A stretch of DNA of 34,657 bases from Minisyncoccota bacterium (GTDB taxonomy: Bacteria; Patescibacteriota; Microgenomatia; UBA1400; PJMF01), in NCBI GenBank assembly GCA_018646985.1, contig JABGTR010000008.1:1-34657 (forward strand), in the 5' to 3' direction. Shown piece by piece: positions 1-24,801 of this stretch. The position numbers and the translations under genes are program-made. Numbering within the stretch: position 1 is the stretch's first letter; the number at the start of each line of letters is the position of its first letter. A model generated the notes under the pieces. That model saw only the letters and a list, made by a program, of their open reading frames with translations. It was not told the origin of the DNA and did no database searches.

Positions 1-338
1 CTTTGAGAGTAAGTTCTAATCTCTTCTAACTTACCCTGATCCATTAAATCAACTAGTGATCCAAGATCTCCCGCATTCCTACTCAACCTATCCGGAGCCC
101 AAGTTAAAATGCCGTTAAACATGCCTTTATCTATGTCGGTGAGTAGTTGGACAAAAATTAGCCGATTGCCTGATTTTTTAGCTGAATGACTCTCTTGTCT
201 AACTTCAACTATATTTAAATTTTCCCTTTCTACTAACTCCTTCATCTCCTTAATTTGTGAGCCAATCGACATGGTTTGTCGCTCATCTGACTCAGAAGAT
301 TTGCGGGCATATAGGCAATATTTTATTGTTTCAGTCAT
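1..338 (-). CDS. Large serine recombinase (resolvase/invertase N-terminal catalytic domain), truncated by the left window edge
   Basis: Reverse complement from ATG at 338 reads MTETIKYCLYARKSSESDERQTMSIGSQIKEMKELVERENLNIVEVRQESHSAKKSGNRLIFVQLLTDIDKGMFNGILTWAPDRLSRNAGDLGSLVDLMDQGKLEEIRTYSQ. The YARKSS catalytic-serine motif and the 'ILTWAPDRLSRN' motif are typical of large serine recombinases. Not in the ORF track because there is no stop inside the window. Confidence 0.9.
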   Translation of the reverse strand, partial: MTETIKYCLYARKSSESDERQTMSIGSQIKEMKELVERENLNIVEVRQESHSAKKSGNRLIFVQLLTDIDKGMFNGILTWAPDRLSRNAGDLGSLVDLMDQGKLEEIRTYSQ

Positions 339-384
339 CTTATTCCTTTCTCAAGGACTAAGGTACCGTAATGGGTCAGGAAGT

Positions 385-654
385 CTAGTCGGAAGAACTA
401 ATAGTATCCATAACATACTGCAGGGAGTTGTTCTTAAAATTGAGTGGGATGTTATTAACTCCATCAGACATACTGTCTACAAACATAGAATGATTTGATT
501 TAATTGCATTGGGAATAAATTTGTCGTCATAAAACTTTTTAATATCCTTATCCTTAACAAATAGCATTTTGAATAGCTTCAGACACTCTAAGTCTTCAAC
601 ATCAATCATTTCTTCTAGATAGAAATTTAGAACCAGAGCATTATTCAACCCCAC
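385..654 (-). CDS. Hypothetical 89-aa protein immediately upstream of, and co-oriented with, the serine recombinase
   Basis: Open ORF on the recombinase strand, 46 nt upstream of its ATG; acidic/lysine-rich composition plausible for a real small protein; no family recognised. Confidence 0.4.
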   Translation of the reverse strand: MGLNNALVLNFYLEEMIDVEDLECLKLFKMLFVKDKDIKKFYDDKFIPNAIKSNHSMFVDSMSDGVNNIPLNFKNNSLQYVMDTISSSD

Positions 655-724
655 TAAGAGTCTCCCTAGAACATTAGTGAGTTATAATCACCTCTACAAA
701 GGTCTTGTGGCTATGGGACACGTT

Positions 725-748
725 GGTTCCAGACCCACATGCTCCGCA
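725..748 (+). repeat. tRNA-Ser 3'-end-like site #1 (21-nt class): gGTTCCAGACCCACATGCTCCGca
   Basis: GTTC...CTCCG spacing of 21 nt, identical to the real tRNA-Ser T-arm/acceptor geometry; 18/21 identical to site #6. Confidence 0.7.
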
Positions 749-879
749 GTAACGTAAAAATTCTGGTAGACCCATCCTTTTTACTATTATAGATTGATGG
801 TGCTCACTAAATATTCCCTAAGTTCAATGATTTTCAGTTTTGGAGCCTAGATAAAAAAACTTAACTTAGATAGTATATA

Positions 880-3564
880 GTGATGAAAAATAAGTCGTAT
901 CACGATTTATCAACTGCAAATACTCTTGAATCTCTAGGTACATCCACCAAAGGCCTCTCCAGTGCAGAAGCTGGTTTACGCTCAAAAAAATTTGGTTTAA
1001 ATAACCTCCCACAAGAAAAAAAACTATCAGCCACTTGGCTCTTTTTTCAGCAATTTAATAATCCACTTATATATGTATTACTTTTTGCTTTAATCCTTAG
1101 TTTTGCAACAGCTCATTTTGTAGATGGCTGGATAGTTTTGGTGGTAATCCTTGTCAGCGGAGTAGTTGGGTTTTTACAAGAATACAAAGCTGATAAAGCA
1201 CTCGCTCATCTTAGTGAGATGGTAAAGTACAAAACAAGAGTGGTGAGAAATGGTGAAGAGGTTGTAGTAGATCAAGAAAAAATAGTACCAGGAGACATTA
1301 TTGTTTTATCGCCTGGTGACAAGATTCCTGCTGATTCAAGATTACTGGAGGCACAAAATCTTGAGATAATTGAAGCAGCCCTAACAGGAGAGTCTTTTCC
1401 TTCTAAAAAATCTACAACTATTTTATCACAAAACACCTCCCTAGCCGATAGAAAAAATATGGTTTTTATGGGAACTGTGGTAGCCAGAGGAAAAGCAAAG
1501 GCGGTTGTGGTGGCTACAGGCATACACACCGAGTTGGGTCACGTTGCAAACCTAGTAAAAGAAGTAAAGAGTGGACAAACTCCCCTGCAAAAACAACTTG
1601 CTGACTTTGGAAAAACAATGGGCTTGATATTAGTTGGAGTAAATATTCTTATCTTTGGCATTGGGATTTTAACAGGTAAACCTCTCTTTGAGATGCTCAT
1701 GACTTCAGTGGCGGTAGTTGTTTCGGCCGTGCCAGAGGGATTGCTGCCCGCGATGACTGTAGTATTAGCAATTGGCACACAGAAACTTGCCAAGCGCAAG
1801 GGTTTGGTCAGAAAAATGGTGGCCGCAGAAACATTGGGTTCAGTGTCTGTAATCTGTACTGATAAAACAGGAACCATCACTAAAGGAGAGATGAGAGTGG
1901 CAGAGATCATTACTGAAAAAACAAAAGTCTCTCATGATGGAGACTCTTTTTCTTCAACCATTCAACCTGATGGAGAAGCCAGTCATGTTATTGCCCTGAA
2001 AATAGGATTGCTTTGTAATAACGCAATAATTGAAAACCCTGAAGATAATCTCAGTGAATGGACTATTGTTGGTGATGCGACAGAAAAGGCTCTTCTCTTA
2101 GCAGCGCGTTCCGCTGGATTAAAAAAAGAGATGTGGGAAGATGATGAGCCCAGAATTGCCGAGGTTCCTTTTGACTCGGAGTATAAGTTTATGGCGACTC
2201 TACATGAACAGAAAAAAGGCTGTGCGCTTTACGCTAAGGGAGCTCCAGAAAAAATATTATCCCTCTCATCTCACGTAGATGTTGAGGGAATTAAAACAAA
2301 ATTAAGTAACGATAAAAAAAATAAAATTCTTAAACAACATCAACACCTAACTAGTAAGGGCTTGCGAGTACTAGCAGTTGCATATCAACTTGAAGATGAT
2401 CCAGTAGAATCTAGTAAATTTTCTAGGGATAAGGTTAACAATCTAGTGTTTGTGGGGTTAATAGCATTAAAAGACCCAATAAGACCAGAGATTAAGCGCA
2501 CAATTGCACAATGCGTTAGAGCTGGAATTAAACCAATTGTCATTACGGGTGATCATAAACTAACTACCATGGCAATTGTTGCAGAGGCAGGAATCAAGGT
2601 ATCTGCAGATAGTGTCATAGAGGGCAGTGAATTAGATGAAATAACCGATAAAGAGCTTCAAGATGTGGTAAAAAATGTAACTATATTTGCTCGAGTTGAA
2701 CCAAAGCATAAAATCAGAATAATCACTGCCTTCCAGGCAAACGGCGAGGTAGTAGCAATGGTTGGTGATGGCGTTAATGACTCTCCAGCAATTAAAAAGG
2801 CAGATATAGGCGTTGCTGTTGGATCAGGTACCGACGTGGCTAAAGAAACTGCTGATCTAGTCTTAATGGATAGTAATTTCAAAACAATTGTCGAAGCAAT
2901 TAAAAGAGGTAGAATTGTTTTTAACAATATCCGCAAAGTAGTTTTATATCTAGTCACAGATGCATTCTCTGAGATGATTATTGTTGGCAGCTCAGTGGTG
3001 CTAGGACTACCTCTTCCCATTCTGCCTGTTCAAATACTGTGGATAAAACTAATAGAAGACGCGGCACCCGCCATATCCCTATCTTTTGATGAAATTGAAG
3101 AAGATGTAATGAATGAAGCACCAAGGAAAAAAAACGAGCCAATATTAAATACTGAAATGAAAAAACTAATTGCTTTTTACTCAATTATTATGGATGTGAC
3201 ATTATTTGGTCTGTTCTTTTACTATTGGAAAACAAGCGGAGATCTAGATTATGCAAGGACAATAACTTTTGTGGGACTAGGCTTAGCTTCGCTTTTTTAT
3301 ATCTACTCAGTTCGAGGATTAAAGCTGTCAATTCTACAGATAAATCCATTTTCTAACAAGCTTTTTGCTTCAGCCACAGTAGCGGGAATCTTATTGTTTT
3401 TGGTCGCTCTATATGTGCCATTCTTTAATAAAATTCTTCACACAGTGCCGCTGGGAGTTAATGAGTGGCTGGTGCTTGGGGGATATGCCTTAATGAGTAT
3501 TGTTGTGTACGAGGTAGGAAAAAAACTGACTATTGCTAGAACTAGAACCAGCAGTAGCCACTAG
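880..3564 (+). CDS. Cation-transporting P-type ATPase (Ca2+/PacL-like)
   Basis: DKTGTIT phosphorylation motif, TGES, MVGDGVNDSPAIKKADIGVAVG hinge motif, N-terminal cation ATPase domain, about 10 TM helices. Confidence 0.95.
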   Translation: MMKNKSYHDLSTANTLESLGTSTKGLSSAEAGLRSKKFGLNNLPQEKKLSATWLFFQQFNNPLIYVLLFALILSFATAHFVDGWIVLVVILVSGVVGFLQEYKADKALAHLSEMVKYKTRVVRNGEEVVVDQEKIVPGDIIVLSPGDKIPADSRLLEAQNLEIIEAALTGESFPSKKSTTILSQNTSLADRKNMVFMGTVVARGKAKAVVVATGIHTELGHVANLVKEVKSGQTPLQKQLADFGKTMGLILVGVNILIFGIGILTGKPLFEMLMTSVAVVVSAVPEGLLPAMTVVLAIGTQKLAKRKGLVRKMVAAETLGSVSVICTDKTGTITKGEMRVAEIITEKTKVSHDGDSFSSTIQPDGEASHVIALKIGLLCNNAIIENPEDNLSEWTIVGDATEKALLLAARSAGLKKEMWEDDEPRIAEVPFDSEYKFMATLHEQKKGCALYAKGAPEKILSLSSHVDVEGIKTKLSNDKKNKILKQHQHLTSKGLRVLAVAYQLEDDPVESSKFSRDKVNNLVFVGLIALKDPIRPEIKRTIAQCVRAGIKPIVITGDHKLTTMAIVAEAGIKVSADSVIEGSELDEITDKELQDVVKNVTIFARVEPKHKIRIITAFQANGEVVAMVGDGVNDSPAIKKADIGVAVGSGTDVAKETADLVLMDSNFKTIVEAIKRGRIVFNNIRKVVLYLVTDAFSEMIIVGSSVVLGLPLPILPVQILWIKLIEDAAPAISLSFDEIEEDVMNEAPRKKNEPILNTEMKKLIAFYSIIMDVTLFGLFFYYWKTSGDLDYARTITFVGLGLASLFYIYSVRGLKLSILQINPFSNKLFASATVAGILLFLVALYVPFFNKILHTVPLGVNEWLVLGGYALMSIVVYEVGKKLTIARTRTSSSH

Positions 3565-3680
3565 AATTTTATTCCCCTTTGAAGATTGAAAGTTAATAGT
3601 AAAAAAACTATAATATGTCTTTAATACTTGTTTATTTTAAATATCAATTACTACTTATTTAGTTTGTCTATCTGCATAAC

Positions 3681-5231
3681 ATGCCTGCCAACTTAATTAA
3701 TTCTTTTATTAGAGTAAAAAAAGCCATCTTAAAAGTTTTTCAAGCTGAAGACAACCAGTTTAAAAAAAGTAATCGTCAGACTGTCAACCCAGCTAAACCC
3801 CCAGTTCTCTCAACTAAGCAAAAAAATGAACAAGAGCTAAGGCAACTATTTTCACAAATCTTGATTAAGGAAATCAATAAATCAAAGATAAAAGCAAGTA
3901 ACTTACGGGTGGAAAATTTCTTTATTACCCAAGAAGGGGTGAAGGTATTTTTTCACTGCGTTCAAGACACTCAGATCAAAGTCTATTTGCATCTATTGGA
4001 GCTAGCCCACCCTGATCACGCTTTGTGGAAAAAACCCAAGTTTATCGCCACTGTTGGTAATATAGAAGATGATTGGCAATTCCAACAACTAACTAAAACT
4101 AGTGGCGAATACTTAGCTACTTGGCATTCCTCCACTTTGGGCAATAAAGAGATTAAATACCCAAGACACTTAATTAAAAATGAGATTGAGCTTAAGCACA
4201 AACCTCAAATTTTACACAAACCCACTTCTAACCCCATGCTTGAGCCAAATGCAGCAAACTCATGGGAAGCATTTTGCACTTTTAATCCTGCAGCTATTTA
4301 TGCAGCAAATAAAGTTCACTTGCTATATCGAGCTCAAGGTCATGATTATGTTTCGCAAATCGGATACGCCTGCAGTGAAGACGGTCTGACTATTAATAAA
4401 CGCTTAAACCAACCCGCCTATCGTCCCAATCAAAAATTTGAAGGCGCAACCATGCCCCTGGGAAATCCTGGCAATGACTTTGTTTCTGGAGGTGGCTGTG
4501 GAGGTTGTGAGGATCCACGCGCTACTATTATTAACGACCGTGTTTATATGACTTATGTGGCTTACGATGGCTGGAATCCGCCTCGCATAGCATTAACCTC
4601 AATCACCCTATCAGATTTTTTAGATCATAATTTCTTATGGGAAAAACCAGTTTTAATTTCCAAACCCAATGAAGTTAATAAAAGTGCGGTGATTTTTCCA
4701 GAAAAGATCAATAATAAATATGTCATTATGCATCGTGTTTTCCCCAACATCTTAATTGACTTTGTAGATGATTTAAATTTTGATGGCTACACATATCTCA
4801 GGGGTGAGCATAAAATTTCTCCTCGCTCCCAAGAGTGGTGGGACAGCCGAAAAATTGGCGCTGGTGCTCCGCCATTAAAGACCCAAGACGGATGGCTATT
4901 AATTTACCAGGCAGTTGATGATAAGGATGCTAGTGAATATAAGGTTGGTGCGATGCTACTTGATCTGAATGATCCAACCAAAGTACTATATCGTTCTACT
5001 AAACCAATCCTAGAGCCTCGCGAAAAATATGAAAATTACGGCTTTAAAGCTGGGGTGGTTTATCCATGTGGAGCTGTAATTAAAGACAACACCCTATTTG
5101 TTTACTACGGCGGAGCTGACTCATGTGTTTGTGTGGCAACCGTACCACTGAAGCAGTTTTTGGGCAATCTTAAAGCTACTGGAATCACTCACCTTAAACC
5201 TAGTATGCTGGGATTAGGAATAACACAGTAG
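3681..5231 (+). CDS. Glycoside hydrolase family 130 protein (mannoside phosphorylase-like) with an N-terminal extension
   Basis: GCGGCEDPRATIINDRVYMTYVAYDGWNPPRIAL, KSAVIFPEKINNKYVIMHR, and repeated beta-propeller blades typical of GH130. Confidence 0.85.
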   Translation: MPANLINSFIRVKKAILKVFQAEDNQFKKSNRQTVNPAKPPVLSTKQKNEQELRQLFSQILIKEINKSKIKASNLRVENFFITQEGVKVFFHCVQDTQIKVYLHLLELAHPDHALWKKPKFIATVGNIEDDWQFQQLTKTSGEYLATWHSSTLGNKEIKYPRHLIKNEIELKHKPQILHKPTSNPMLEPNAANSWEAFCTFNPAAIYAANKVHLLYRAQGHDYVSQIGYACSEDGLTINKRLNQPAYRPNQKFEGATMPLGNPGNDFVSGGGCGGCEDPRATIINDRVYMTYVAYDGWNPPRIALTSITLSDFLDHNFLWEKPVLISKPNEVNKSAVIFPEKINNKYVIMHRVFPNILIDFVDDLNFDGYTYLRGEHKISPRSQEWWDSRKIGAGAPPLKTQDGWLLIYQAVDDKDASEYKVGAMLLDLNDPTKVLYRSTKPILEPREKYENYGFKAGVVYPCGAVIKDNTLFVYYGGADSCVCVATVPLKQFLGNLKATGITHLKPSMLGLGITQ

Positions 5232-5245
5232 AAAGTATTAATAAT

Positions 5246-7192
5246 TTGGACTCTAAAACTATGACTAATATTACCGTCACTCGCTCTTCGCACAACCCTC
5301 TACTTAAGCCCAGCCCAGAATTGCCGTGGGAAGCAGCAGCTACATTTAACCCTTCAGTTTTGGTTGAAAATAATCAATATCATATGGTTTATCGAGCTTT
5401 ATCGGCTCAGCAAAATTATGAAGGCCAAATTTTTAATCTATCAACCATCGGTCTAACCACTAGTAGTGATGGAACAGAGTTTAATTCAAGCCCACACAAA
5501 CAATTCATTGTTCCTAGTGAGGTTTTTGATCACTATGGCTGTGAAGACCCACGTCTAACAAAAATCGATGACGAGTATTTTATTTGCTACACCGGTCTAT
5601 CTGCCTGGCCACCAAATGCTAAGAGCATTAAGGTAGCCATAGCTATTAGCAATGATCTTAAAATTATTAAAAAAAAGCATTTAGTGACACCATTTAATGC
5701 CAAAGCCATGGCATTGTTTCCAGAGAAAATTAATGGTCAATATGTAGCTGTTCTTACAGTTAACACTGATCAACCACCGGCCCATATTGCCATTGCCAGA
5801 TTTGATTACAAAGAGCAAATCTGGGATCCAGATTTTTGGCGCGATTGGTATCTTCACCTAGAAGATCATATTTTATGGTTGCCTCGTTTTAATACTGATC
5901 ACGTAGAAGTTGGAGCGGTGCCAGTTAAAACTGATAAGGGCTGGGTTTTGATTTATTCTCATATTCAAAACTACCTACAACCAGAAAAAAGAATTTTTGG
6001 GATTGAAGCTGCCTTATTGGATGTCTCTGATCCACAAAAAATTATTGGCCGGACTAGCAAACCTCTCTTACAACCAGTCTTAAAATACGAGCTGGAGGGT
6101 ATGGTTGAAAATGTTATCTTTCCCTCTGGAGCAGCTATCGTAGGTGATGAGTTTAAAATTTATTATGGAGCAGCTGATACAGTAGGTGCTGAGGCGAGTG
6201 TTAGATTAGATGTCTTTCTAAGTTTACTAAAAAATAGTGATACTAAAGGAATACTTAAGTTTAATAAATTTAAAGACAACCCCATCCTATCTCCACACGA
6301 AGACCAGCCATGGCAAGCTCAGGCTGTATTTAATAGCGCTGCACTTTATGAGAATGACCAATTTTATTTACTTTTTAGAGCCATGTCTTGGGATAATACT
6401 TCTACCATTGGCTGTGCTGTCAGTGATGATGGTTTCAACTTTACTCAATTAGCCAATGATCCTATTTATGTGCCAAGGATGGAGTTTGAGAGTAAATATA
6501 GGCCAAATGCTTTTTCAGGATGTGAGGATCCACGCCTTACAAAATTTGGCGATCGTATTTACATGTTTTATACTGCCTATGACGGACAGCGCCCACCTCG
6601 AGTAGCATTGACATCAATTAAAGAATCAGACTTCTTTGCTCACAATTGGCTATGGAAAGAGCCTATTTTGATCTCCAATCCAAAAATAGATAATAAAAAT
6701 GCTTGCTTATTTCCTGAAAAAATTAACGATAAATTTGTTGTATTGCACCGTACCGCTGGCCATGAGATAGCTATTGATTTTATAAATGAGCTATCAGACC
6801 TCAATCAAGAAAATATTTTATTAGAAAAAGAAGCGGCAATTAGCCCCAATCCAGATGGGTGGGACAGCGCAAAAATTGGTATTGCTGGTCCACCAATTAA
6901 AACAGAGAAAGGCTGGTTATTAATTTATCATGGGGTAAGTAGGTTTGATAAAAACTATCGATTAGGTTACATGATCCTTGACTTGGAAGATCCCTTTCAT
7001 GTTTTATATCGCAGTTCGTATCCGATTTTAGAACCACAAATGGAGTTTGAGAAAAAAGGCATTATTGATAATGTAGTTTTTTCTTGCGGTGCTGTTGAAA
7101 AAGATGGCTTATTCTACCTTTATTATGGTGGTGCTGACAAAGTTATGTGCGTAGCAACAATGGAAATTAAAAAGCTGCTGGATGTAGTTTAA
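5246..7192 (+). CDS. Tandem two-domain GH130 protein
   Basis: Two consecutive GH130 domains: first with YGCEDPRLTKIDDEYFICYTGLSAWPP, second with SGCEDPRLTKFGDRIYMFYTAYDGQRPPRVAL; each is followed by an 'LFPEKIN' and a 'GWLLIY'-type segment. Confidence 0.85.
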   Translation: MDSKTMTNITVTRSSHNPLLKPSPELPWEAAATFNPSVLVENNQYHMVYRALSAQQNYEGQIFNLSTIGLTTSSDGTEFNSSPHKQFIVPSEVFDHYGCEDPRLTKIDDEYFICYTGLSAWPPNAKSIKVAIAISNDLKIIKKKHLVTPFNAKAMALFPEKINGQYVAVLTVNTDQPPAHIAIARFDYKEQIWDPDFWRDWYLHLEDHILWLPRFNTDHVEVGAVPVKTDKGWVLIYSHIQNYLQPEKRIFGIEAALLDVSDPQKIIGRTSKPLLQPVLKYELEGMVENVIFPSGAAIVGDEFKIYYGAADTVGAEASVRLDVFLSLLKNSDTKGILKFNKFKDNPILSPHEDQPWQAQAVFNSAALYENDQFYLLFRAMSWDNTSTIGCAVSDDGFNFTQLANDPIYVPRMEFESKYRPNAFSGCEDPRLTKFGDRIYMFYTAYDGQRPPRVALTSIKESDFFAHNWLWKEPILISNPKIDNKNACLFPEKINDKFVVLHRTAGHEIAIDFINELSDLNQENILLEKEAAISPNPDGWDSAKIGIAGPPIKTEKGWLLIYHGVSRFDKNYRLGYMILDLEDPFHVLYRSSYPILEPQMEFEKKGIIDNVVFSCGAVEKDGLFYLYYGGADKVMCVATMEIKKLLDVV

Positions 7193-7320
7193 TAAATTTC
7201 TGCTCATCATAATCTAAAAAAACAATGTTGTTTAGTAGAATGACACAATCAGAGCTTCGCAACAGCTTAAATGTAAGCTAAAATGGCTCAAAACCTATAG
7301 CAACTAGAGGTAAGTATGGT

Positions 7321-7346
7321 GTGGGTTCGAATCCCTCCACCTCCGC
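7321..7346 (+). repeat. tRNA-Ser 3'-end copy, site #2 (21-nt class): GTGGGTTCGAATCCCTCCACCTCCGC
   Basis: 26 nt exactly identical to the 3' end of tRNA-Ser(GGA) at 16541-16566; no tRNA 5' half precedes it. Confidence 0.95.
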
Positions 7347-7392
7347 AAGGCGGTATGAGCAATATAATAACAAACTTAGATTAGTATGTTTT

Positions 7393-9123
7393 TTAGTCTT
7401 TAACAAATGAAAAAGTAGATAAAATTTCATCTAACTCTTCGTATCCAACTTGATAAGTGTCAATTTTTATATACTCTGTATCATTTTTGGGTATATAAAT
7501 ATCTATGTCACTAAACATTCCTGGAGGATTAACTATCACTGCATTTAATTTGGCAATAGTAGTGTAGGGTTTTGCTTCTTCAACTCCTTCTGAGATTAAA
7601 AAATCAAGTAAAGGCTGTTCTTTTGATTTAACTTTTTTTGAAAAAGATAAATATCCACTAGTACAAATTGGACCACCAGTTTCCGTATAACATTCCTCAG
7701 GCAGATTTATTTTCTCTCCATCAAAGCTCCATTCTTGAGGATATTTTAAAGAGAAGCCTAGCTGGCTATTCTTTAACTCTTTCCAATTTATTGTTGAAGT
7801 CAAGAATTTTATACTCGATAAAATCTGTTCTCCATCGGAGTAATCACTAATCTCTTTATGATGAACTTCAAATAAATATATATAGCCATCTTTACTAACA
7901 ACACTCATCTTGAATGATGTGCCACTCTCTTCACTATATGCGGACACCTCTGCGTAGTAAGCATCTCTCCCTGCAACTATTGAAGAAGAAATATTTTCAA
8001 CTACCACTTTTCTACTCCACAGATTATTTTGAATATCAAAACCAATATTTTCCCACCAATCTTTTGCTGATAAATCAGACTTATAAATAAAAGCTCTAAA
8101 AGATGAAGAGCTGGTATTTGGTTTTGCTACGCTGATTTCTACCAAAGCATCTCTATTATTTTCATCACTTTCAAAAATCTGATAACCTTCAGCTATTGGA
8201 TAATCAAATGAAAAGCCATACTCTTCATTAATGTAATTTTTGTAAACCTGATCTGATTGATTTACCTCAATTGATTCAAATATCTCATTCATGGCACCAC
8301 TTGGTAAAGGTTCCTGCCCTCCATGAAAGACATATAGATTTTTATTAAACTCAACCATATAGCGTGGAATTGAACCTGGCCCTCCTTCTTCTGAGTAACA
8401 ACTGTCAGGTTTAAAATCAACTACACTCACATTCTTATTTTCAAGTGAGACTGGTTTAGAATACTCTCTCTTTAAAGTCCATCCAGCTCCCTTACTCTCA
8501 CAAAAATCTAAAGTATCGCTGTTGTAGTTAGCGATATATTCTTCTGCAGACATTTCTGAATTTAAAGATGTAATTTTACAAATATTTAAGCCACCAGCTA
8601 AATAAATATGATTACTATTGTCACCACCAGACACTGCCTTTTCCCAGACTGGCTCATAGTATTGGCTAGTGAAATAACCATTGCCAATTTTTACACAATC
8701 ATCAACTAAGGGGTCAGCTTCGGCAGTTTCTGAAGAAGTAAAGCCGTGACAACCTTCAAATCCATTGCAGTATGGAACTCTCAATTTAAAGTCAGACAAA
8801 ACAACCTCTTCCCAAGGGCTAAAAGCTTCCACCCAAATTGAACTATTTTCCTTAAAATCTTCAGAAAGTAGCTCCTCTAATACAGAGCCTTGAGTTTCTG
8901 TTCTATCAAAACCAACAGGTTCATTATTTACTTGAGTAGAAAAGAAAGAAACAATAATAATCAAAGCTAAAGAAATCAGTGTCCCCACCAAAAGACTTTT
9001 CTTATTAATTCTCAGAAAAGATCTGTTAACAACAGGTTCTTGATCTATATCTATTTGAGTGTCTATAGCTTCACTCTTCTGATCTAGATTATTATTTTTA
9101 TCTTCTTGAGGATTTAGCGTCAT
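7393..9123 (-). CDS. Membrane-anchored hypothetical protein with repeated PsbP-like segments
   Basis: N-terminal TM helix (SLLVGTLISLALIIIVSFFS) and repeated 'EYGFSFDYP'/'QLGFSLKYPQEWSF' motifs. Confidence 0.7.
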   Translation of the reverse strand: MTLNPQEDKNNNLDQKSEAIDTQIDIDQEPVVNRSFLRINKKSLLVGTLISLALIIIVSFFSTQVNNEPVGFDRTETQGSVLEELLSEDFKENSSIWVEAFSPWEEVVLSDFKLRVPYCNGFEGCHGFTSSETAEADPLVDDCVKIGNGYFTSQYYEPVWEKAVSGGDNSNHIYLAGGLNICKITSLNSEMSAEEYIANYNSDTLDFCESKGAGWTLKREYSKPVSLENKNVSVVDFKPDSCYSEEGGPGSIPRYMVEFNKNLYVFHGGQEPLPSGAMNEIFESIEVNQSDQVYKNYINEEYGFSFDYPIAEGYQIFESDENNRDALVEISVAKPNTSSSSFRAFIYKSDLSAKDWWENIGFDIQNNLWSRKVVVENISSSIVAGRDAYYAEVSAYSEESGTSFKMSVVSKDGYIYLFEVHHKEISDYSDGEQILSSIKFLTSTINWKELKNSQLGFSLKYPQEWSFDGEKINLPEECYTETGGPICTSGYLSFSKKVKSKEQPLLDFLISEGVEEAKPYTTIAKLNAVIVNPPGMFSDIDIYIPKNDTEYIKIDTYQVGYEELDEILSTFSFVKD

Positions 9124-9293
9124 ATCTTTTTATTGTATATGAAGTAAAATTTGTAAACAAGCTTGCACAGACTAACTTACAGAGCTCATGTTTTGTAAGA
9201 TTTCAAATGTAATCTAAAAAAGCGGTTTAGTTTTAGACTATGTTAAAGGTAAGTGAGATTAACTGCTAAAATAGGATCAGGAGTGATCAAGAA

Positions 9294-9324
9294 GTAGGTT
9301 CTAACTTAATCTCAGGTCCTCCGC
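9294..9324 (+). repeat. tRNA-Ser 3'-end-like site #3 (26-nt class): gtagGTTCTAACTTAATCTCAGGTCCTCCGc
   Basis: GTTCTAA...CTCCGCA with 26-nt spacing, intergenic, + strand. Confidence 0.55.
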
Positions 9325-9393
9325 AACCAAGAATTGGAATTTAAATTCTAATTAAGTTACAATAAGTTTAGTTATTTAATTGGAGACAAAACT

Positions 9394-9591
9394 ATGAATG
9401 TTGATAAAAAAACCACAAAGGTAGCTTTAGTTTCTCTGGCTATAGCTTTAGTTTGGTCTACCCCATCTATCAAGGCAGTTTCAATTGGAACATCTACTCC
9501 TACAGAGACAGTAATTAGCGTATTGATTCGTACTGTAATAGTTTTTGCCTTTGTAAGACTTGTCCTATCTATTGCTGGCAAGAAAAAATAA
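9394..9591 (+). CDS. 65-aa small membrane protein
   Basis: Two hydrophobic segments (VALVSLAIALVWSTPSIKAV; VISVLIRTVIVFAFVRLVLSIAG), basic tail KKK; the only plausible gene between two repeat sites. Confidence 0.6.
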   Translation: MNVDKKTTKVALVSLAIALVWSTPSIKAVSIGTSTPTETVISVLIRTVIVFAFVRLVLSIAGKKK

Positions 9592-9614
9592 GCAATCCAC
9601 TTTTCTCAAATAAA

Positions 9615-9642
9615 GTTCCAAGATCGTCCCACGCTCCCCGCA
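9615..9642 (+). repeat. tRNA-Ser 3'-end-like site #4 (26-nt class): GTTCCAAGATCGTCCCACGCTCCCCGCA
   Basis: 22/28 identical to site #5, same 26-nt spacing, intergenic. Confidence 0.6.
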
Positions 9643-9648
9643 AAAAAA

Positions 9649-10437
9649 ATGAATCAAGAACAACAGGAGTTTTCAAAAAGAATAGCTGCTCTCACCGATG
9701 TAAGTTTATTGCTCACAAACAATCTTAAAGAAATTAAATTTGGCCCAGATGACTTAGAAAAACTTAAAAAAATAAATTTTCCTGTAATATTTGCTACCAC
9801 GCATCTATCAGATCTGGATACAACTGCCTTTCTTAATGTCTTGGCGAAAGAAACTAAAATTATGGTTTCTGTAGCATATGAATCTTCTCAAGAAAGTCCC
9901 CTTCAAAATTCAGTCGGTTGGTTTAATTTATCAATCGCAAAATTAATGGTTGGTAAAGAAAATTTCTTGCCGATTACCTCTCATCAGGGAAAGGGCGTGC
10001 TTGCACCCAAAGACTATGAGTCTCAAGCTGAAATAATCAAAAATGGAAGATCTATTGTCATGGCTGGCTACCATTCTAGAAAAATAGACAAGGCACGAGG
10101 AATAAGACATATTGGCCACAATCAACGTGGAGTAACCTTACCTAATAAGGGTGGAGTCGGAGCAGTTTTTTTATCTATTCTATCTGGTGCTCCAATAGTA
10201 CCAGTGGCCATTGACATAGAAAGTGATAAATTTAGACCAGGAATCTCTGTAAAAATAGGTGAGCTTATCTCTCCAAAAGTTAGCTCTGATTTTAGCAACT
10301 GGGAAAAAATGACTTCAGAAGAAAAAAGATTCGCAATTAGAGAATTAAGACATTACTCTGACATGATATTAAAATCTCAAGCTTCGATGTTGCCCACTGA
10401 AAAAAGAGGGAGACAATCTCAGGACTTACTTTATTGA
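9649..10437 (+). CDS. 1-acyl-sn-glycerol-3-phosphate acyltransferase-like (PlsC superfamily)
   Basis: HX4D motif (THLSDLD), GRSIVMAGYHS segment, APIVPVAID motif. Confidence 0.7.
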   Translation: MNQEQQEFSKRIAALTDVSLLLTNNLKEIKFGPDDLEKLKKINFPVIFATTHLSDLDTTAFLNVLAKETKIMVSVAYESSQESPLQNSVGWFNLSIAKLMVGKENFLPITSHQGKGVLAPKDYESQAEIIKNGRSIVMAGYHSRKIDKARGIRHIGHNQRGVTLPNKGGVGAVFLSILSGAPIVPVAIDIESDKFRPGISVKIGELISPKVSSDFSNWEKMTSEEKRFAIRELRHYSDMILKSQASMLPTEKRGRQSQDLLY

Positions 10438-10446
10438 GAGTTAAAA

Positions 10447-10474
10447 GTTCCAATTTCTTCCTACCCTCTCCGCA
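10447..10474 (+). repeat. tRNA-Ser 3'-end-like site #5 (26-nt class): GTTCCAATTTCTTCCTACCCTCTCCGCA
   Basis: 22/28 identical to site #4, same length, intergenic; lies 10 nt after the preceding stop codon and 2 nt from the next gene's stop. Confidence 0.6.
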
Positions 10475-10476
10475 GC

Positions 10477-11301
10477 TTAAGATCCATATGCTGTTAAATA
10501 ATCATTATATGATTTCATCAATCCCTTTATCGATGGATGAATTTCAGAATATTCAACCTGTCCAATTTTTCGAATAGGCAATATTTTAGAGCTGGTGCTA
10601 GTTAAAAAGCCTCCATCAAACTTAGCGATGCTATTTACACTAAGCTCCTTTTCAATAAATTTAAATCCCAAGCTGATGGCAATAGGTTTCAACGTCATCA
10701 AAGTAACACCAGATAACATACGAGACAATGGAGCATGATAGATATTTTTTCCTTTTACAAAACAGAGATTCGTTCTTGTTCCCTCAAGTACAATTCCTTT
10801 ATTGTCTACCAAAAGAGCATCGTAACAACCGACCTCTTTTGCTTTTTTGTAAGCAATATAACTACCCAGCATATTAAGAGTTTTTGCAGTAGGATATTTT
10901 CTCTCATACTTCTCAAGTATTAGACTAACTCCTTTTTTATAAAATTTTCTATTCGGATACAAAGGTGCTAATGGCAAAATAGTAAGACTAACTTCATTAC
11001 CTCCAATCAACAATAGCTTGATTTTATATGAATCTTGCTCTAATTTTTGAACAAGCTCTATAATTTTTTTCTTAACATAAGTTTTAGTAAATTTATGTTC
11101 AAGACCAATTGCAGTAGCAGAATATAGAAGACGCTCAACGTGTTGATCTACAAAATACAATACACCTTTCCTAACTTTTAGACTTTCATATACTCCATAA
11201 CCATAACAGTATTCAATATTATTGAAAGGAATTGTCGCTTTTTTAATAGGCTTAATAACTCCATTTAGTGAGAAGTGTTTGAAACGAAATATTTCATCCA
11301 T
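10477..11301 (-). CDS. Class IV aminotransferase (BCAT / D-Ala aminotransferase / ADC lyase fold)
   Basis: YGYGVYESLKVRKG, LNMLGSYIAYKKAKEVGCYDALLVDNKGIVLEGTRTNLCFVKG typical of PLP fold-type IV. Confidence 0.85.
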   Translation of the reverse strand: MDEIFRFKHFSLNGVIKPIKKATIPFNNIEYCYGYGVYESLKVRKGVLYFVDQHVERLLYSATAIGLEHKFTKTYVKKKIIELVQKLEQDSYKIKLLLIGGNEVSLTILPLAPLYPNRKFYKKGVSLILEKYERKYPTAKTLNMLGSYIAYKKAKEVGCYDALLVDNKGIVLEGTRTNLCFVKGKNIYHAPLSRMLSGVTLMTLKPIAISLGFKFIEKELSVNSIAKFDGGFLTSTSSKILPIRKIGQVEYSEIHPSIKGLMKSYNDYLTAYGS

Positions 11302-11402
11302 TGTTATTAACAGTATAATGCATTTTTAATACAAGAAAAATAATTGGAAGATAAAGGGTCATTGATTTATTAGAGTGACAATATGGTTTGCAAGACACTA
11401 TT

Positions 11403-11426
11403 GTTCTAGACCAGCATGCTCCGTCA
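11403..11426 (+). repeat. tRNA-Ser 3'-end-like site #6 (21-nt class): GTTCTAGACCAGCATGCTCCGtca
   Basis: 18/21 core identity to site #1, 24/32 over an extended gapless alignment; followed by inverted repeat GTCATTA-CC-TAATGAC. Confidence 0.7.
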
Positions 11427-11430
11427 TTAC

Positions 11431-12669
11431 CTAATGACTTTGAATCCTAATTAGTTTCCTAGCAGCCGCCATCCCCAAAGCTTGTAAGATTGCTCCAGCA
11501 GCAATCACTGTCATTACTCCCAGTTTTTTATCTAAATAATGAAAAGCAGCTAATATTAGCAGCATTGAACTGACTCTTCCTAAATTAATAAAGAACTCAT
11601 GATCAAGCACATAAGCATAGTTATCTGCTATCAGCCCTTCACCTTGAGTTTCTGTGGCCTTTGACATAATCGGAATATAAACAAACCAGAAGAGATTTCC
11701 TGAAACAATCATTGCCGTAATGTAAATAATTAACGTCAACTGACCAAAATTTACTAACAATAACAAAACTGCAACTAGCAGTGACAGAGTGCTCAACATA
11801 AGTAGTCTGAATCTATCCTTAGGCTGCATCTTACGTCCCACCATGTAAATAATTAGCCCCACCACCACCGCTAGTGCTGATTTTATAACTCCTAATACCC
11901 CCTCATCTCCAATAAAAGATAGAGTGATCGCTTCCACCACGGTTGCTCCCACCGCCATCTGCATAGTAGATGCTAAAACAAAAGTTCTAAATAATTTCCA
12001 ATCTGGACTTACTTTCTTAGGCCAAAAATGAGTTACTTTAAGAGTTGGAAACTCTTTAATTGAATTTAAAAAAATAGTTCCAACAAAGAGTACTATTACA
12101 CCAAAACCCATGATAGTCACATAAGCACCTTCAGCTCCAAAATTGGGCTGAGTACGAGACCAAACAATTAGCCAACCTGCTAAAAGTGGCAAAATTACTC
12201 CACTTAAATTTCCCACTAAAGTTACAATCCCAGAGATGTAATCTCGCTCTCTATCTTCAGTCAAAGTTGGGAAAATAAAGTTGCGGTTAGCCCAATAAAA
12301 ACCTGATGACAAACCAACTATCAAGCCCACACTAAAAATATTCCATAAGCTCAAAGTCTGAAATAAAAATAAAATTGCCAATGACCCACCTTGCAAAATC
12401 GAAGCAGGAATAAAAATGCGTCGCACATCCATAAACTTAATCAAAAAAGCATTAAGGTGAAAACCTAGTAAAATCATAATATAGACACCTAAATTAAAAA
12501 CTGCGATTGAAGAGATACTGTTAGTGCTAATAAAGAGATAGGCATTAGCAAACACAAAAATCAAATTATTGGAAATAATTTGACAAAAAATAGACAGCAC
12601 AAATTTTTGTACATCTGGTCTAAGCTGATGGAAAATACTCAGTTCACGCCTGAGCCGATCTCTTAACAT
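11431..12669 (-). CDS. MFS-type transporter
   Basis: About 12 hydrophobic helices, MFS-like pattern; overlaps the downstream-oriented GT2 gene in an operon. Confidence 0.75.
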   Translation of the reverse strand: MLRDRLRRELSIFHQLRPDVQKFVLSIFCQIISNNLIFVFANAYLFISTNSISSIAVFNLGVYIMILLGFHLNAFLIKFMDVRRIFIPASILQGGSLAILFLFQTLSLWNIFSVGLIVGLSSGFYWANRNFIFPTLTEDRERDYISGIVTLVGNLSGVILPLLAGWLIVWSRTQPNFGAEGAYVTIMGFGVIVLFVGTIFLNSIKEFPTLKVTHFWPKKVSPDWKLFRTFVLASTMQMAVGATVVEAITLSFIGDEGVLGVIKSALAVVVGLIIYMVGRKMQPKDRFRLLMLSTLSLLVAVLLLLVNFGQLTLIIYITAMIVSGNLFWFVYIPIMSKATETQGEGLIADNYAYVLDHEFFINLGRVSSMLLILAAFHYLDKKLGVMTVIAAGAILQALGMAAARKLIRIQSH

Positions 12670-13588
12670 AAGAGCTTATTATACCTTTAATTGTCCCCAC
12701 CATTACTCCCCAATCTGAGACTATTTGCAAAACTGGCAGGTAATACCAGCTTCTATCTAGATACTGAGCATTTTTCCACATCGCCCAGAATGAGTAAATA
12801 CTAGCACTAACCACTACAAAAGCAGCACATAAAATCCAATTTGGACAGAAAAAGACAGCCGCTAAAAATAAGAAGATAAGATAACGACAGAAAATTAAAT
12901 ATGACTTAATACGCGTAATGCCAGCTCGAGCATCGTACTGAGCCATTCCCATCACAGTTTGATAAAAATCTTGCCAGGTTTCAATCGGCCACCAAGCTAC
13001 CTTAGCTTTCTGAGTAAAGGTAAGTTTGAATTTAGCTTGTTCTAGGCGATGGGCAAAATCATAGTCTTCGCTCAAAGTTAAACTCTCGTCAAAACTACCT
13101 ACTGCTTGCCAAACCTGCTTCTTAATCATCATCGATCTGGTAGCTGGTAAGAAATGAGCTGGATTAACTCTATCTGGCATGACTAGCATGTATGGCACTA
13201 CCGCTGCCTGAAAAGCTGTCTCTGGAGCAGCGTCATAATAACCAGCTACTACTTCAGCCTGAGATTTAGTAGCTGCTTGAGCTAGTTTTTCCAACCAATC
13301 AGTGTGAGGCATACATCCAGCATCGGTAATAGCGACCCATTCATTTTTTGCTAGTTTGATACCAAAATTTCTGCCAGCACTCCGATTGCCTTTTTTAATA
13401 ATTAATTTCAAAGGAAAGCTAGGATGTTTTTTTTGGAAGACTTTAATTAATTGAACTGTATCATCAGTGGAACCAGCATCAATAATAATAACTTCAGCAG
13501 GCTGATATGTTTGCGAAGTCAAACCTAATAGTAAAGCTGCAATTGTTTCGACTTCATTTAATACTGTCACTATCACTGAAATATTCAT
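12644..13588 (-). CDS. Glycosyltransferase family 2
   Basis: ISVIVTVLNEVETI...VIIIDAGSTDDTV...GRNFGIKLAKNEWVAITDAGC. Confidence 0.9.
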   Translation of the reverse strand: MNISVIVTVLNEVETIAALLLGLTSQTYQPAEVIIIDAGSTDDTVQLIKVFQKKHPSFPLKLIIKKGNRSAGRNFGIKLAKNEWVAITDAGCMPHTDWLEKLAQAATKSQAEVVAGYYDAAPETAFQAAVVPYMLVMPDRVNPAHFLPATRSMMIKKQVWQAVGSFDESLTLSEDYDFAHRLEQAKFKLTFTQKAKVAWWPIETWQDFYQTVMGMAQYDARAGITRIKSYLIFCRYLIFLFLAAVFFCPNWILCAAFVVVSASIYSFWAMWKNAQYLDRSWYYLPVLQIVSDWGVMVGTIKGIISSYVKRSAQA

Positions 13589-14643
13589 TTAAGCTCCCAC
13601 AGCTGTTGATACTGATCTGCAATTTTCTTCCAAGTTTGCTGCTGGGCCCAAAGACGGGCTTGACGCGAATACTTATCTAAAACCAGAGTATTGTCTAGGA
13701 GCTCAAGAATTTGTTTTTTTAGCTGTTCTTCACTAGTTGAGACTAGCATGTAAGTAGAGCCTGGATATGACTTTAAGTATCGCTCTTTTAACTGTTGTGA
13801 ATAGAGTGCGCAAACTATTTTTCCCTGAGCTTGAGCTTCTAAAATAGACAGGTAGGAGGCAGACCAAACTAGGTCTGCTTTTGAGATATATTTAGTTAAA
13901 TCTGTAACCATCCCCGTGACTTGCCCATACCGCTCACATTCTTCTCGGTAAAAACCATCGCCTACCCAAGTTATTTTAATATCTAAAATTGATTTTAATT
14001 TTTTAGCCAAAGTCAAATACTTTTCTAAATCATTCTCTGCTTCCAACCGACCCACAAAAACGATATGTATTTTTTTTCCTATCTTCTTAGCTTTAAGCTG
14101 ATCATTTATAACTCCCCCATAGATAACTAAATCAGGCTTGTCCCAATAAAATTCTTGGATGTAGTCACCCACATGAATCGTCTTTAGAGCCAGCTTGCTC
14201 CAACACCACCGGGCTAACTTATTTTTGAAAGGCACAGGGAACTGTCCCTCCCAACCATGAAAAGTCAGGTAAATTTTCGACCAAAACAGAGGTAAAAGCG
14301 GCAATAGCCACCAATAAACATCATGAACATGAATTATGTCTGCTTTAAGTAAAAGTTGTGAATGTTTAGCCACCTGCTGCCAAACTGTTAATTTTTCTAT
14401 TAATTTAAGATCATAATTTTTCCCCAAATCAATCCTATTCACCTCAACCCTATTAATAGTTTCTTGAGCAGGCAAGCTGCTGTCGTGGAGCTGAGTTAAA
14501 ACTGAAACCTGATGACCTTGTTTAATTAGTTCTTTACTCACCTGATTTACATGAGTTTCAACGCCACCTAAGCGTGGCTCATAAAAAGGAGTTATCTGTA
14601 AAATTTTTACGGGCTTAGTTTTTATTACGGCTGTGGTAGGCAT
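13585..14643 (-). CDS. Glycosyltransferase family 4/1 (GT-B)
   Basis: ILQITPFYEPRLGGVETHVNQVSKELIKQGHQVSVLT; VFVGRLEAENDLEKYL. Confidence 0.9.
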   Translation of the reverse strand: MPTTAVIKTKPVKILQITPFYEPRLGGVETHVNQVSKELIKQGHQVSVLTQLHDSSLPAQETINRVEVNRIDLGKNYDLKLIEKLTVWQQVAKHSQLLLKADIIHVHDVYWWLLPLLPLFWSKIYLTFHGWEGQFPVPFKNKLARWCWSKLALKTIHVGDYIQEFYWDKPDLVIYGGVINDQLKAKKIGKKIHIVFVGRLEAENDLEKYLTLAKKLKSILDIKITWVGDGFYREECERYGQVTGMVTDLTKYISKADLVWSASYLSILEAQAQGKIVCALYSQQLKERYLKSYPGSTYMLVSTSEEQLKKQILELLDNTLVLDKYSRQARLWAQQQTWKKIADQYQQLWELK

Positions 14644-14663
14644 TAAGTTTTATCCTTACTGGC

Positions 14664-16424
14664 ATGATATCACTTACGCTCTGCGTTTTCCTATTTTTAC
14701 TGGCTAAACCAATCCAGGCTAGTGAGGTTTTATTTACAGATGAATTTATTGTTGATAATTTGGAGAGTTGGGCTGTAGTGCGAAACAGCCAGCACCATCA
14801 CCCTGAAAAACCGTGCTTTAATGGCGGATATCCAGCAGAATGGGAAGTCACTGATGGAAAACTCGGCATTAATATTAACAGCGGTGCTTGTATCACCGAA
14901 ATAATTCCCCAAAACCTAGATTTATCTGAGGTCAATAACTATGAGTTTGAGTTTGAGTGGTACTTTCCAATATCTACTCATATGGATCGCAATGTCTTGA
15001 TAAAATGGCAAGACGTGGATAACTGGTATGGGCTACATATTTTAGACGATAAGATATTGTTGGAAAAAGTAATTGCTGGAAAAGCTGAATCTTTGTACAA
15101 CAACTGGGGATATTATCAATTTGAAGCTGATCAAAACTATGATTTTAGAATTAGTGTCATCAATGACCTAATTACAGTCTGGATAAATGACCAGCAAATT
15201 TTACAAACTCTAGACAGACCTCCTTTCTTAATAAGAAATAAAACAGTGGGTTTTCGAGCCAGCAGTGGCAATATTTTCCAATCAAGCTCCTGGTTTGATA
15301 ACTTAATTGTTAAATCTTTAGATCAAGATGGTGAAAAAAAACTTAGTGTCCCACTCTATAAACAACATGATCCTAAGTGGAAAAATCATGAGTATGATCA
15401 TGCAAATGATTGGTCGAAGTCACCATCCATTGCCCGTTGGGGTTGTGCTCTGACTGCGATGACGATGATTCTGGACTACCATAGCATTAATCAACTCCCC
15501 AACGATCAAAAACTGAACCCAGCCAGTTTAAACGCTTGGCTGCAGGATCAAGATGATGGTTTTATTGGTGGAGGGTTAATCAACTGGCTGGCGGTGACTC
15601 GTTTAACTAAAACAATAAGCGAAGTACTGAAAACACCTACTCTAGAATACGAGTGGCTAGAAGGAGAAATTAAAAATGCAGTTGATGAGATTGATAAAAA
15701 TCAGCCAGTAGTTTTACAAATACCAGGGCATTTCTTAGTTGGTAATGGCTATGATGCCTCAAAAACAGATTTGCTCATTAAAGACCCAGCTTACCAACGA
15801 GATCTGCTAAGCCAACACGAGGCTGACCTACAGTCAATTCGCTCATTTAAACCTAGTTATACTGACTTGAGTTATCTACTAATTGTCCATGACCCAGAAA
15901 CAAAAATCTCTTTAATTGATGAAAGTGGTCAAATACCAGCTAAATTAAAAATCTACCAAGAATATGTTAAAAGCAATGAAGCTGAAGAACAAACAAAAAT
16001 TAAAATAATTCAAAGCTTAGCCAAACCAGAAAATGAAAAGTATCTACTAAAAACTGAGGGCGGAATAATTGAAATCTATACTTATGACACTGAAGGTGAA
16101 GTCACAATATTGACGCAAGAAGTTATTGGCAACAAAATTTTTGAGCTAAACTATGATTCTCAAAGTAAAAGTCAGTTAATAGAAATAACTAATAAATTTA
16201 CCCTCCTAAGAGATTTACTTAAAACCTTGTATGAGTCTGGAGAAATAACTACTAAATATGCTTATCTAAAACTAGACCAACTAGCTGCTTATGCTGAAAA
16301 TGATGAGCTAAACCGAGAAAGATATCAAGAACTGATCATTAAAAAAATTGGTGATTTAACTGAATTTATCACTAGCTCAGATGTTATAATTAAACACCTG
16401 AGGTCGTATAGCTCAGCTGGCTAG
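14664..16424 (+). CDS. Secreted protein with a concanavalin-like N-terminal domain and a C39-like cysteine peptidase domain
   Basis: Signal peptide; 'SVPLYKQHDPKWKNHEY...RWGCALTAMTMILDYH...QPVVLQIPGHFLVGNGYD...LLIKDPAY' C39-like pattern. Stop codon lies inside tRNA-Val. Confidence 0.8.
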   Translation: MISLTLCVFLFLLAKPIQASEVLFTDEFIVDNLESWAVVRNSQHHHPEKPCFNGGYPAEWEVTDGKLGININSGACITEIIPQNLDLSEVNNYEFEFEWYFPISTHMDRNVLIKWQDVDNWYGLHILDDKILLEKVIAGKAESLYNNWGYYQFEADQNYDFRISVINDLITVWINDQQILQTLDRPPFLIRNKTVGFRASSGNIFQSSSWFDNLIVKSLDQDGEKKLSVPLYKQHDPKWKNHEYDHANDWSKSPSIARWGCALTAMTMILDYHSINQLPNDQKLNPASLNAWLQDQDDGFIGGGLINWLAVTRLTKTISEVLKTPTLEYEWLEGEIKNAVDEIDKNQPVVLQIPGHFLVGNGYDASKTDLLIKDPAYQRDLLSQHEADLQSIRSFKPSYTDLSYLLIVHDPETKISLIDESGQIPAKLKIYQEYVKSNEAEEQTKIKIIQSLAKPENEKYLLKTEGGIIEIYTYDTEGEVTILTQEVIGNKIFELNYDSQSKSQLIEITNKFTLLRDLLKTLYESGEITTKYAYLKLDQLAAYAENDELNRERYQELIIKKIGDLTEFITSSDVIIKHLRSYSSAG

Positions 16425-16475
16425 AGCACACGATTCACATTCGTGAGGTCCCTGGTTCGAGTCCAGGTACGACCA
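16402..16475 (+). tRNA. tRNA-Val(CAC)
   Basis: Acceptor GGTCGTA/TACGACC, D-arm GCTC..GAGC, anticodon arm CACGA-TTCACAT-TCGTG, T-arm CCTGG-TTCGAGT-CCAGG. Confidence 0.95.
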
Positions 16476-16482
16476 CATACCA

Positions 16483-16568
16483 GGAGGTGTCGCATAGTGG
16501 CCAATTGCACACGCTTGGAAAGCGTGAGTCTTATGACTCCGTGGGTTCGAATCCCTCCACCTCCGCCA
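16483..16568 (+). tRNA. tRNA-Ser(GGA) with encoded CCA
   Basis: Acceptor GGAGGTG/CACCTCC, G73, long variable arm (GAGTCTTATGACTC), anticodon loop TTGGAAA, ends GCCA. Confidence 0.95.
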
Positions 16569-24360: not shown

Positions 24361-24779
24361 GGGGATGTATTGATTCGACGTAATATGCTCATTAACATCT
24401 GCAGACCGTCTTTGACCTAAAGACGTTAAACAAGGTTAAAACATAACTGCAAATAAAACTCGCAGTCAAGTTGCAGGTAACGGCTTTTTTAGCCCAATAA
24501 TGGAGACCCTTGGGTCTGCATTTAAACCAGCAGCTCCACAAATGCTTTACGCATAAACTGGCATTCATGAGCCTAATTTCACTAGCGTTGACTCATGGGT
24601 GAAACCTTAGTTAGTGTGACAATGAATTATTGCTTGCCATGATTCATCTAAGATTTATGACAAGCCTTAAGTAAAATCCGTTTGTTTATTCACGTTTTAC
24701 TTAATATGAAAGATAAACTAAGTCTGTAGGTGGTGTTATTGTTCAGTTGCGGACGCGGGTTCACTACCCGCCATCTCCA
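24361..24779 (+). ncRNA. ssrA: tmRNA
   Basis: 5' GGGGATGTATTGATTCGACG and 3' GCGGGTTCACTACCCGCCATCTCCA form the tRNA-like domain (GGGGATG/CATCTCC); TATAAT at 24343-24348 upstream; candidate tag ORF from GCA at 24449. Confidence 0.93.
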
Positions 24780-24801
24780 CATTTTTCTGCTAAGATACTT
24801 T

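Follow-up and report, generated by a model that had tools for sequence, protein, structure and literature searches.

The described systems closest to the locus analyzed here are the SCC and composite SCC islands of staphylococci, integrons, the additive flexible islands at tRNA-Lys of Methylophilaceae, and tycheposons. In SCC, the large serine recombinases CcrAB or CcrC integrate elements at the 3' end of a conserved gene, rlmH, and elements with and without a recombinase accrete in tandem and in one direction. Integrons use the tyrosine recombinase IntI, and their arrays, some without a nearby recombinase, run from an anchor site through single-gene cassettes each ended by a site of fixed direction. 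As far as the available excerpt of the source goes, the Methylophilaceae islands combine variable cargo beside the tRNA gene with repeats of its last nucleotides, which are short, exact and varying in number, and a serine recombinase goes unmentioned in that excerpt; tycheposons are described there as tRNA-anchored cargo elements that use a tyrosine recombinase (XerD) and other tRNA genes (PMC10872708).

Here we analyze a window of 34,657 nucleotides, the whole stretch of DNA under study, which is contig C34 of an 881-kb metagenome-assembled genome (MAG) in 45 contigs. CPR bacteria such as its host, which belongs to a large uncultured group, have very small genomes, and to our knowledge their routes of gene acquisition are poorly understood; a literature search of limited scope found no description of arrays of the kind reported below in CPR. 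The first-pass annotation had read positions 1–11430 as a cassette array of a serine recombinase delimited by sites that resemble the 3' end of tRNA-Ser, and comparative data support this reading. We propose, with a probability of about 0.78, that tRNA-Ser genes anchor arrays in which autonomous elements and cargo cassettes stand in tandem, and that these units are moved by the family of serine recombinases to which the enzyme at the left end of the window belongs.

The six tRNA-Ser 3'-end-like sites noticed earlier (725, 7321, 9294, 9615, 10447 and 11403) are all present on the + strand, and their GTTC-to-CCG lengths are indeed 21, 21, 26, 26, 26 and 21 nt. They do not form a single set: 9294 and 11403 are degenerate, and the six split into three families, type B (725 and 11403), type A (7321) and type D (9294, 9615 and 10447), with the 26-nt sites set apart as a separate family by BLASTN against relatives. 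Overall, the site classes comprise families A, B and D and gene-less structured units (C). Apart from the core, there is little similarity among the left arms of the three types. The type-A core (7325–7347) and the 3' end of the tRNA-Ser(GGA) gene on contig C21 have the same sequence; the site is of a terminal type, with no right arm after it. Many array sites are followed by a conserved right arm, R1, of ~106 bp; within the window, it is found only 3' of site 725.

Sites were modelled as double-stranded half-sites, and matrices built from the sites of relatives only were run over the whole 881-kb genome with the reversed sequence as a control. Five sites (725, 9294, 9615, 10447 and 11403) were top-ranked genome-wide by these models from other genomes. 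The three best matches of the type-D core matrix end at 9642, 10474 and 9325 (scores in the table), followed by the next real match at 15.3 and a reversed-genome maximum of 9.2. For the type-B 45-mer matrix, ranks 1 and 2 fall at 748 and 11425, all other matches score 4 or less, and the control gave no matches. With a 25-nt half-site matrix, also from relatives, four non-tRNA array sites exceeded the control maximum, including those ending at 748 and 7347 in the window; the rest of the matches over that maximum lie at tRNA ends and, at 24781, at a 3' end resembling that of a tmRNA. Judged by the half-site matrix alone, 9294, 9615, 10447 and 11403 had passed for chance matches, an assessment overturned by the family-specific matrices. 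The motif, which the first-pass annotation allowed might prove equally frequent elsewhere, was thus confined and not spread over the genome. The tmRNA-like 3' end (GGTTCACTACCCGCCATCTCCACA) occupies window positions 24758–24781; ARAGORN reported no tmRNA.

Profile scans of relatives, a check proposed earlier, showed that arrays recur behind tRNA-Ser genes across Microgenomates-type CPR MAGs. Within the order, type B gave 32 matches in 20 of 94 genomes (one in the control) and type D 19 matches in 12 of 94 (none in the control); across the class, type B was found in 42 of 288 genomes, against one match of the reversed pattern. In the 881-kb genome itself, significant HMM matches to type A and to the right arm were restricted to the array on contigs C21, C22 and C34 and its tRNA-Ser ends. 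In other families of the order, R1 lies directly behind tRNA-Ser genes of four isoacceptors (GCT, CGA, GGA and TGA) and behind array sites; it was found once behind tRNA-Asp. More arrays stand behind tRNA-Ser in four genomes that were outside model building (G203, G127, G250 and G192), and the pattern is also present in the single-contig genome G042. The nearest tRNA-Ser gene is on the strand of the site for 36 of 39 sites, a count that supports rather than proves the rule, as the loci were chosen for holding sites or tRNA-Ser; the three exceptions are all on one contig, which apparently starts inside its array. Some cassettes are opened by a second type of right arm (TCCYAGGATTCGAACTACAGTGACG; L225, L226 and cassettes of G042:C1). 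A search of IMG/VR returned one contig with a type-B site, no match to the core-plus-R1 pattern and one distant recombinase.

The layout of an array bounded by sites was borne out, except that its start lies outside the window, at a genuine tRNA-Ser(GGA) gene on C21. Exact 141-bp overlaps join C21(+), C22(−) and C34(+), and the scaffold is supported by the recombinase ORF, which runs across the C22/C34 join and is matched by relatives along its entire length at about 80% identity. The scaffold is nevertheless an inferred join, and all data come from MAGs, in which contigs may be misbinned. Two more array sites lie outside the window, at C22:1740 and at the C21/C22 junction, where C21 contributes the left arm and C22 the right arm of a complete site. 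From the tRNA-Ser(GGA) gene, the array continues with a right arm, genes for a CsoR-like and a DUF4395 protein, a type-A site and right arm, genes for 212-aa and 402-aa proteins and a phosphoesterase, a second type-A site and right arm, and a 155-aa ORF with the recombinase on the other strand. It passes into the window within the recombinase gene, and there the type-B site at 725 and its right arm are followed by the P-type ATPase and two GH130 genes, the type-A site at 7321, the 576-aa gene, a degenerate type-D site, the 65-aa gene, a type-D site, the 262-aa gene, another type-D site, the aminotransferase gene and a degenerate type-B site. In this array, only one unit between sites contains a recombinase. 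The units had been described as discrete and functionally unrelated. Pfam identifies the P-type ATPase, the GH130 proteins and the aminotransferase; the 262-aa protein, previously labelled an acyltransferase, matches nothing in Pfam or NCBIfam. On C21, a truncated homologue of the 576-aa protein lies behind tRNA-Ser(CGA).

Table 1. Array features and the adjoining duplicated block in the window.
Feature	Position	Strand	Evidence
N-terminal 112 aa of 432-aa large serine recombinase	3..338	-	Pfam Resolvase + Recombinase + Zn_ribbon_recom; remainder on C22
Type-B site, left arm and tRNA-Ser T-arm/acceptor mimic GGTTCCAGACCCACATGCTCCGCA	658..748	+	HMM E=1e-15; 54.9 bits
Right arm R1, ~106 bp	750..854	+	HMM E=3e-25, model including R1; conserved behind tRNA-Ser/array sites of relatives
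Cargo: cation-transporting P-type ATPase	880..3564	+	Pfam; counterpart in G002:C10 begins directly 3' of type-B site
Cargo: two GH130 glycoside phosphorylases	3681..7192	+	Pfam PF04041
Type-A site, left arm and tRNA-Ser(GGA)-identical core	7209..7347	+	HMM E=6e-38; half-site score 33.2
576-aa protein	7393..9123	-	No Pfam/NCBIfam match
Degenerate type-D site, 26-nt class	9296..9325	+	18.7 bits, genome rank 3 for type D
65-aa protein, cassette gene	9394..9591	+	ORF
Type-D site AAGTTCCAAGATCGTCCCACGCTCCCCGCA	9613..9642	+	42.3 bits, genome rank 1 for type D
262-aa protein, flanked by type-D sites	9649..10437	+	No Pfam/NCBIfam match
Type-D site with left arm	10421..10474	+	39.8 bits; matches sites of G017 and G001 by BLASTN
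274-aa class IV aminotransferase, cassette gene	10477..11301	-	PF01063 E=6e-41
Degenerate type-B site	11381..11425	+	21.9 bits, genome rank 2 for type B
Second, diverged MFS-glycosyltransferase-glycosyltransferase-586-aa-tRNA-Val-tRNA-Ser(GGA) block	11431..16568	.	~79% nt identity to copy on C21
tRNA-Val(CAC)	16402..16476	+	ARAGORN
tRNA-Ser(GGA) copy 2, no right arm behind	16483..16568	+	ARAGORN

At the junction between the end of C21 and the start of C22(−), the break coincides exactly with the final base of the site core. This is a possible sign of variation between cells; we do not count it as evidence because most contigs of the MAG end in 141-bp overlaps. That the whole pattern might be chance or an artefact of assembly is suggested by the 45-contig state of the MAG and the contig ends within the array; given the genome-wide ranks against reversed controls and the recurrence in G042 and across the class, we regard this explanation as hardly credible.

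The array is flanked by two copies of the MFS-to-tRNA-Ser(GGA) block, the first of which (C21:21250–26255) precedes it and the second of which follows the degenerate type-B site. Window positions 7347–16568 are part of a duplicated chromosomal block. Two genomes of the same genus, G001 and G002, have a single MFS-to-tRNA-Ser(GGA) block. We hypothesize that the second block might derive from a circle that closed between two tRNA-Ser genes in a relative and then integrated at this place.

Differences between relatives with breakpoints at the sites had been set as a test, and units are indeed found in varied contexts with breakpoints at sites. A flavodoxin and cupin cassette is present twice in G042, one copy in each of two arrays, and in another genus (G001) the cupin without the flavodoxin lies behind tRNA-Ser(CGA). 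In G002, the P-type ATPase unit stands behind a type-B site with a left neighbour that differs from that in the window. Single-gene arrays occur in G054:C8, behind tRNA-Ser(CGA), and in G039:C92 and G001:C10. The description of the locus as a cassette array holds for such single-gene cassettes and has to be widened to larger cargo units and autonomous elements with a recombinase. Large autonomous elements ending in type B were found in G042 (22 kb) and G043; among their genes are the recombinase, a ParB-methyltransferase fusion, a methyltransferase, a type III restriction subunit and a LexA-like repressor (L152, L218 and L139). Cargo-only units, judged from protein starts, include a 3.9-kb ABC-transporter-like operon in G046 and an ABC-like operon with two-component genes in G203. 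Within one genus, the tRNA-Ser(CGA) locus holds an autonomous element (G043), ABC cargo (G046) or gene-less units (G035 and G005).

Could unrelated islands or prophages have entered tRNA-Ser genes singly, through different integrases, and left 3'-end duplications, with the small units as products of decay? The 3' ends of tRNA genes are frequent targets, several site classes exist, some genomes have no close recombinase, two of the six sites are degenerate, and in G018 R1 and the type-B arm alone remain, at most 211 bp from the tRNA. We still find this explanation improbable, given that conserved site families with arms of their own occur in many genera and are not plain copies of the tRNA, that one cassette recurs in different arrays with sites on either side of it, and that single-gene units stand between consecutive sites. 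Tandem arrays of mobile units anchored at tRNA-Ser remain our preferred reading.

Gene-less structured units of about 120–200 bp, with a site core at their end, lie directly behind tRNA-Ser or a type-B site (L253, L258, L271, L251, L230, L138, L141 and L148), and two gene-less modules are arranged in a different order in G035 than in G043. G005 was rejected as an example of an empty site, as the sequence behind its tRNA-Ser is common to other small units. Together with the likeness of the sites to the T-arm, the gene-less units would fit sites that are RNA features, such as tRNA-like 3' ends, terminators or processing signals, rather than recombination sites. This is very unlikely: in the site-unit loci searched, Rfam returned nothing but tRNA at the gathering score, the modules bounded by the sites vary from one genome to another, and the right arm is associated with the recombinase locus.

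A large serine recombinase had been placed at the left end of the window, on the opposite strand, and this is correct; the gene is cut by the contig end, and at its full length of 432 aa the protein has the Resolvase, Recombinase and zinc-ribbon domains (Pfam) that characterize large serine recombinases. Its closest PDB chains by sequence are a YokA resolvase homologue and recombinases of conjugative transposons, and its relatives come from Pacebacteria, Woesebacteria and other Microgenomates-type CPR MAGs. In G054, G002, G043 (two loci) and G064, a recombinase gene lies on the opposite strand within about 0.5–2 kb of a site; thus, the closeness to one attachment site expected of large-serine-recombinase elements is found in several loci. 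All eight genomes with the Ser-type recombinase have sites, versus 20 of 86 others (Fisher p=2.8e-5, with loci preselected for sites or tRNA-Ser and kinship ignored, and hence support rather than proof). In a tree, recombinases beside tRNA-Ser form one clade, separate from those beside tRNA-Glu, and none of 500 shuffles was as clustered. The sister recombinases beside tRNA-Glu have the same layout (L153, L181, L182 and L137), and therefore the recombinase clade seems to have changed its target.

By association, the array sites appear to be served by the family of the 432-aa recombinase, less certainly so for type D. Some genomes have type-B or type-D sites and yet lack a close relative of the recombinase (G001, G039 and G017), and therefore another enzyme may move some of the classes, or the arrays may be relics. 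A true integron, with the tyrosine integrase IntI and folded single-stranded attC sites, would account for single-gene cassettes, fixed site direction and non-autonomous cargo, and yet is extremely unlikely here. The enzyme of the array is a serine recombinase and the sites mimic a T-arm; the IntI profile TIGR02249 had no match above its curated cut-off in the genome, and weaker matches to it occurred in 14 of 14 control genomes.

The mechanism that we propose for the tRNA-Ser-anchored arrays is as follows. The 432-aa recombinase would insert DNA circles at the tRNA-Ser 3' end. The left half-site would be the T-arm/acceptor end of the tRNA, or the mimic in which each unit terminates on its far side, and the right half-site would be R1 or a different arm with which the unit begins on its near side. 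Exchange inside CCGC would restore the tRNA and leave a new junction that can be used again, and repeated insertion would produce a row of units with all sites in the direction of the tRNA. We infer the position of the exchange from the bases flanking CCGC: the preceding one varies with the tRNA, and the following one keeps to the right arm, being A in all 22 R1 sites scored. Some units are autonomous; most are cargo only, from ABC operons and the P-type ATPase with GH130 genes down to single genes, and would presumably be moved in trans. The repeated tRNA-Ser-targeted integration that was first offered as an alternative to an array is therefore not really separate from it, and is likely the mechanism of the array itself. 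In a model of serine integrases, attP half-sites have their zinc-ribbon motif 5 bp farther from the centre than attB half-sites do (PMC3783163). By analogy, the 21- and 26-nt classes, which show the same 5-bp difference, might speculatively correspond to attB-type and attP-type half-sites.

If this picture is true, a class-wide tRNA-Ser cassette system would be a main route of gene gain for these CPR bacteria, and would add to integrons a second means of assembling rows of exchangeable single genes. The sites are a simple handle by which adaptive cargo can be found across thousands of MAGs, and studies of target choice by serine integrases would profit from the recombinase clades at tRNA-Ser and tRNA-Glu. 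A broader version, held tentatively and at somewhat less than even odds, is an independently evolved Microgenomates platform with permanent tRNA-Ser anchors and T-arm-mimic ends, in which one recombinase family shuffles genes and operons in trans class-wide and the 21- and 26-nt classes are attB and attP.

Compared with the described systems, the arrays share with SCC a large serine recombinase, integration into the 3' end of a conserved gene, one-directional tandem accretion, and elements both with and without a recombinase. They differ in their target, which by insertion site is the tRNA-Ser family and not the rlmH gene used by Ccr, and in their single-gene units, T-arm-mimic ends, several site families and Microgenomates CPR host. 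With integrons they have in common an anchor site, tandem cassettes each ended by a site of fixed direction (36 of 39 sites, and the single-gene arrays), single-gene cargo and arrays without a nearby recombinase; the serine recombinase in place of IntI, the tRNA gene as anchor and the additional multi-gene and autonomous units set them apart. The Methylophilaceae islands, as excerpted, resemble the arrays in variable cargo by a tRNA gene and repeated last nucleotides, where the arrays have arm families and a recombinase clade, and tycheposons resemble them in tRNA-anchored cargo and differ in recombinase and tRNA genes (PMC10872708). Thus, the system is plainly serine-recombinase integrative in appearance and fits none of the four fully; on our best reading, the arrays work like an integron or a composite SCC island and are a member of neither.
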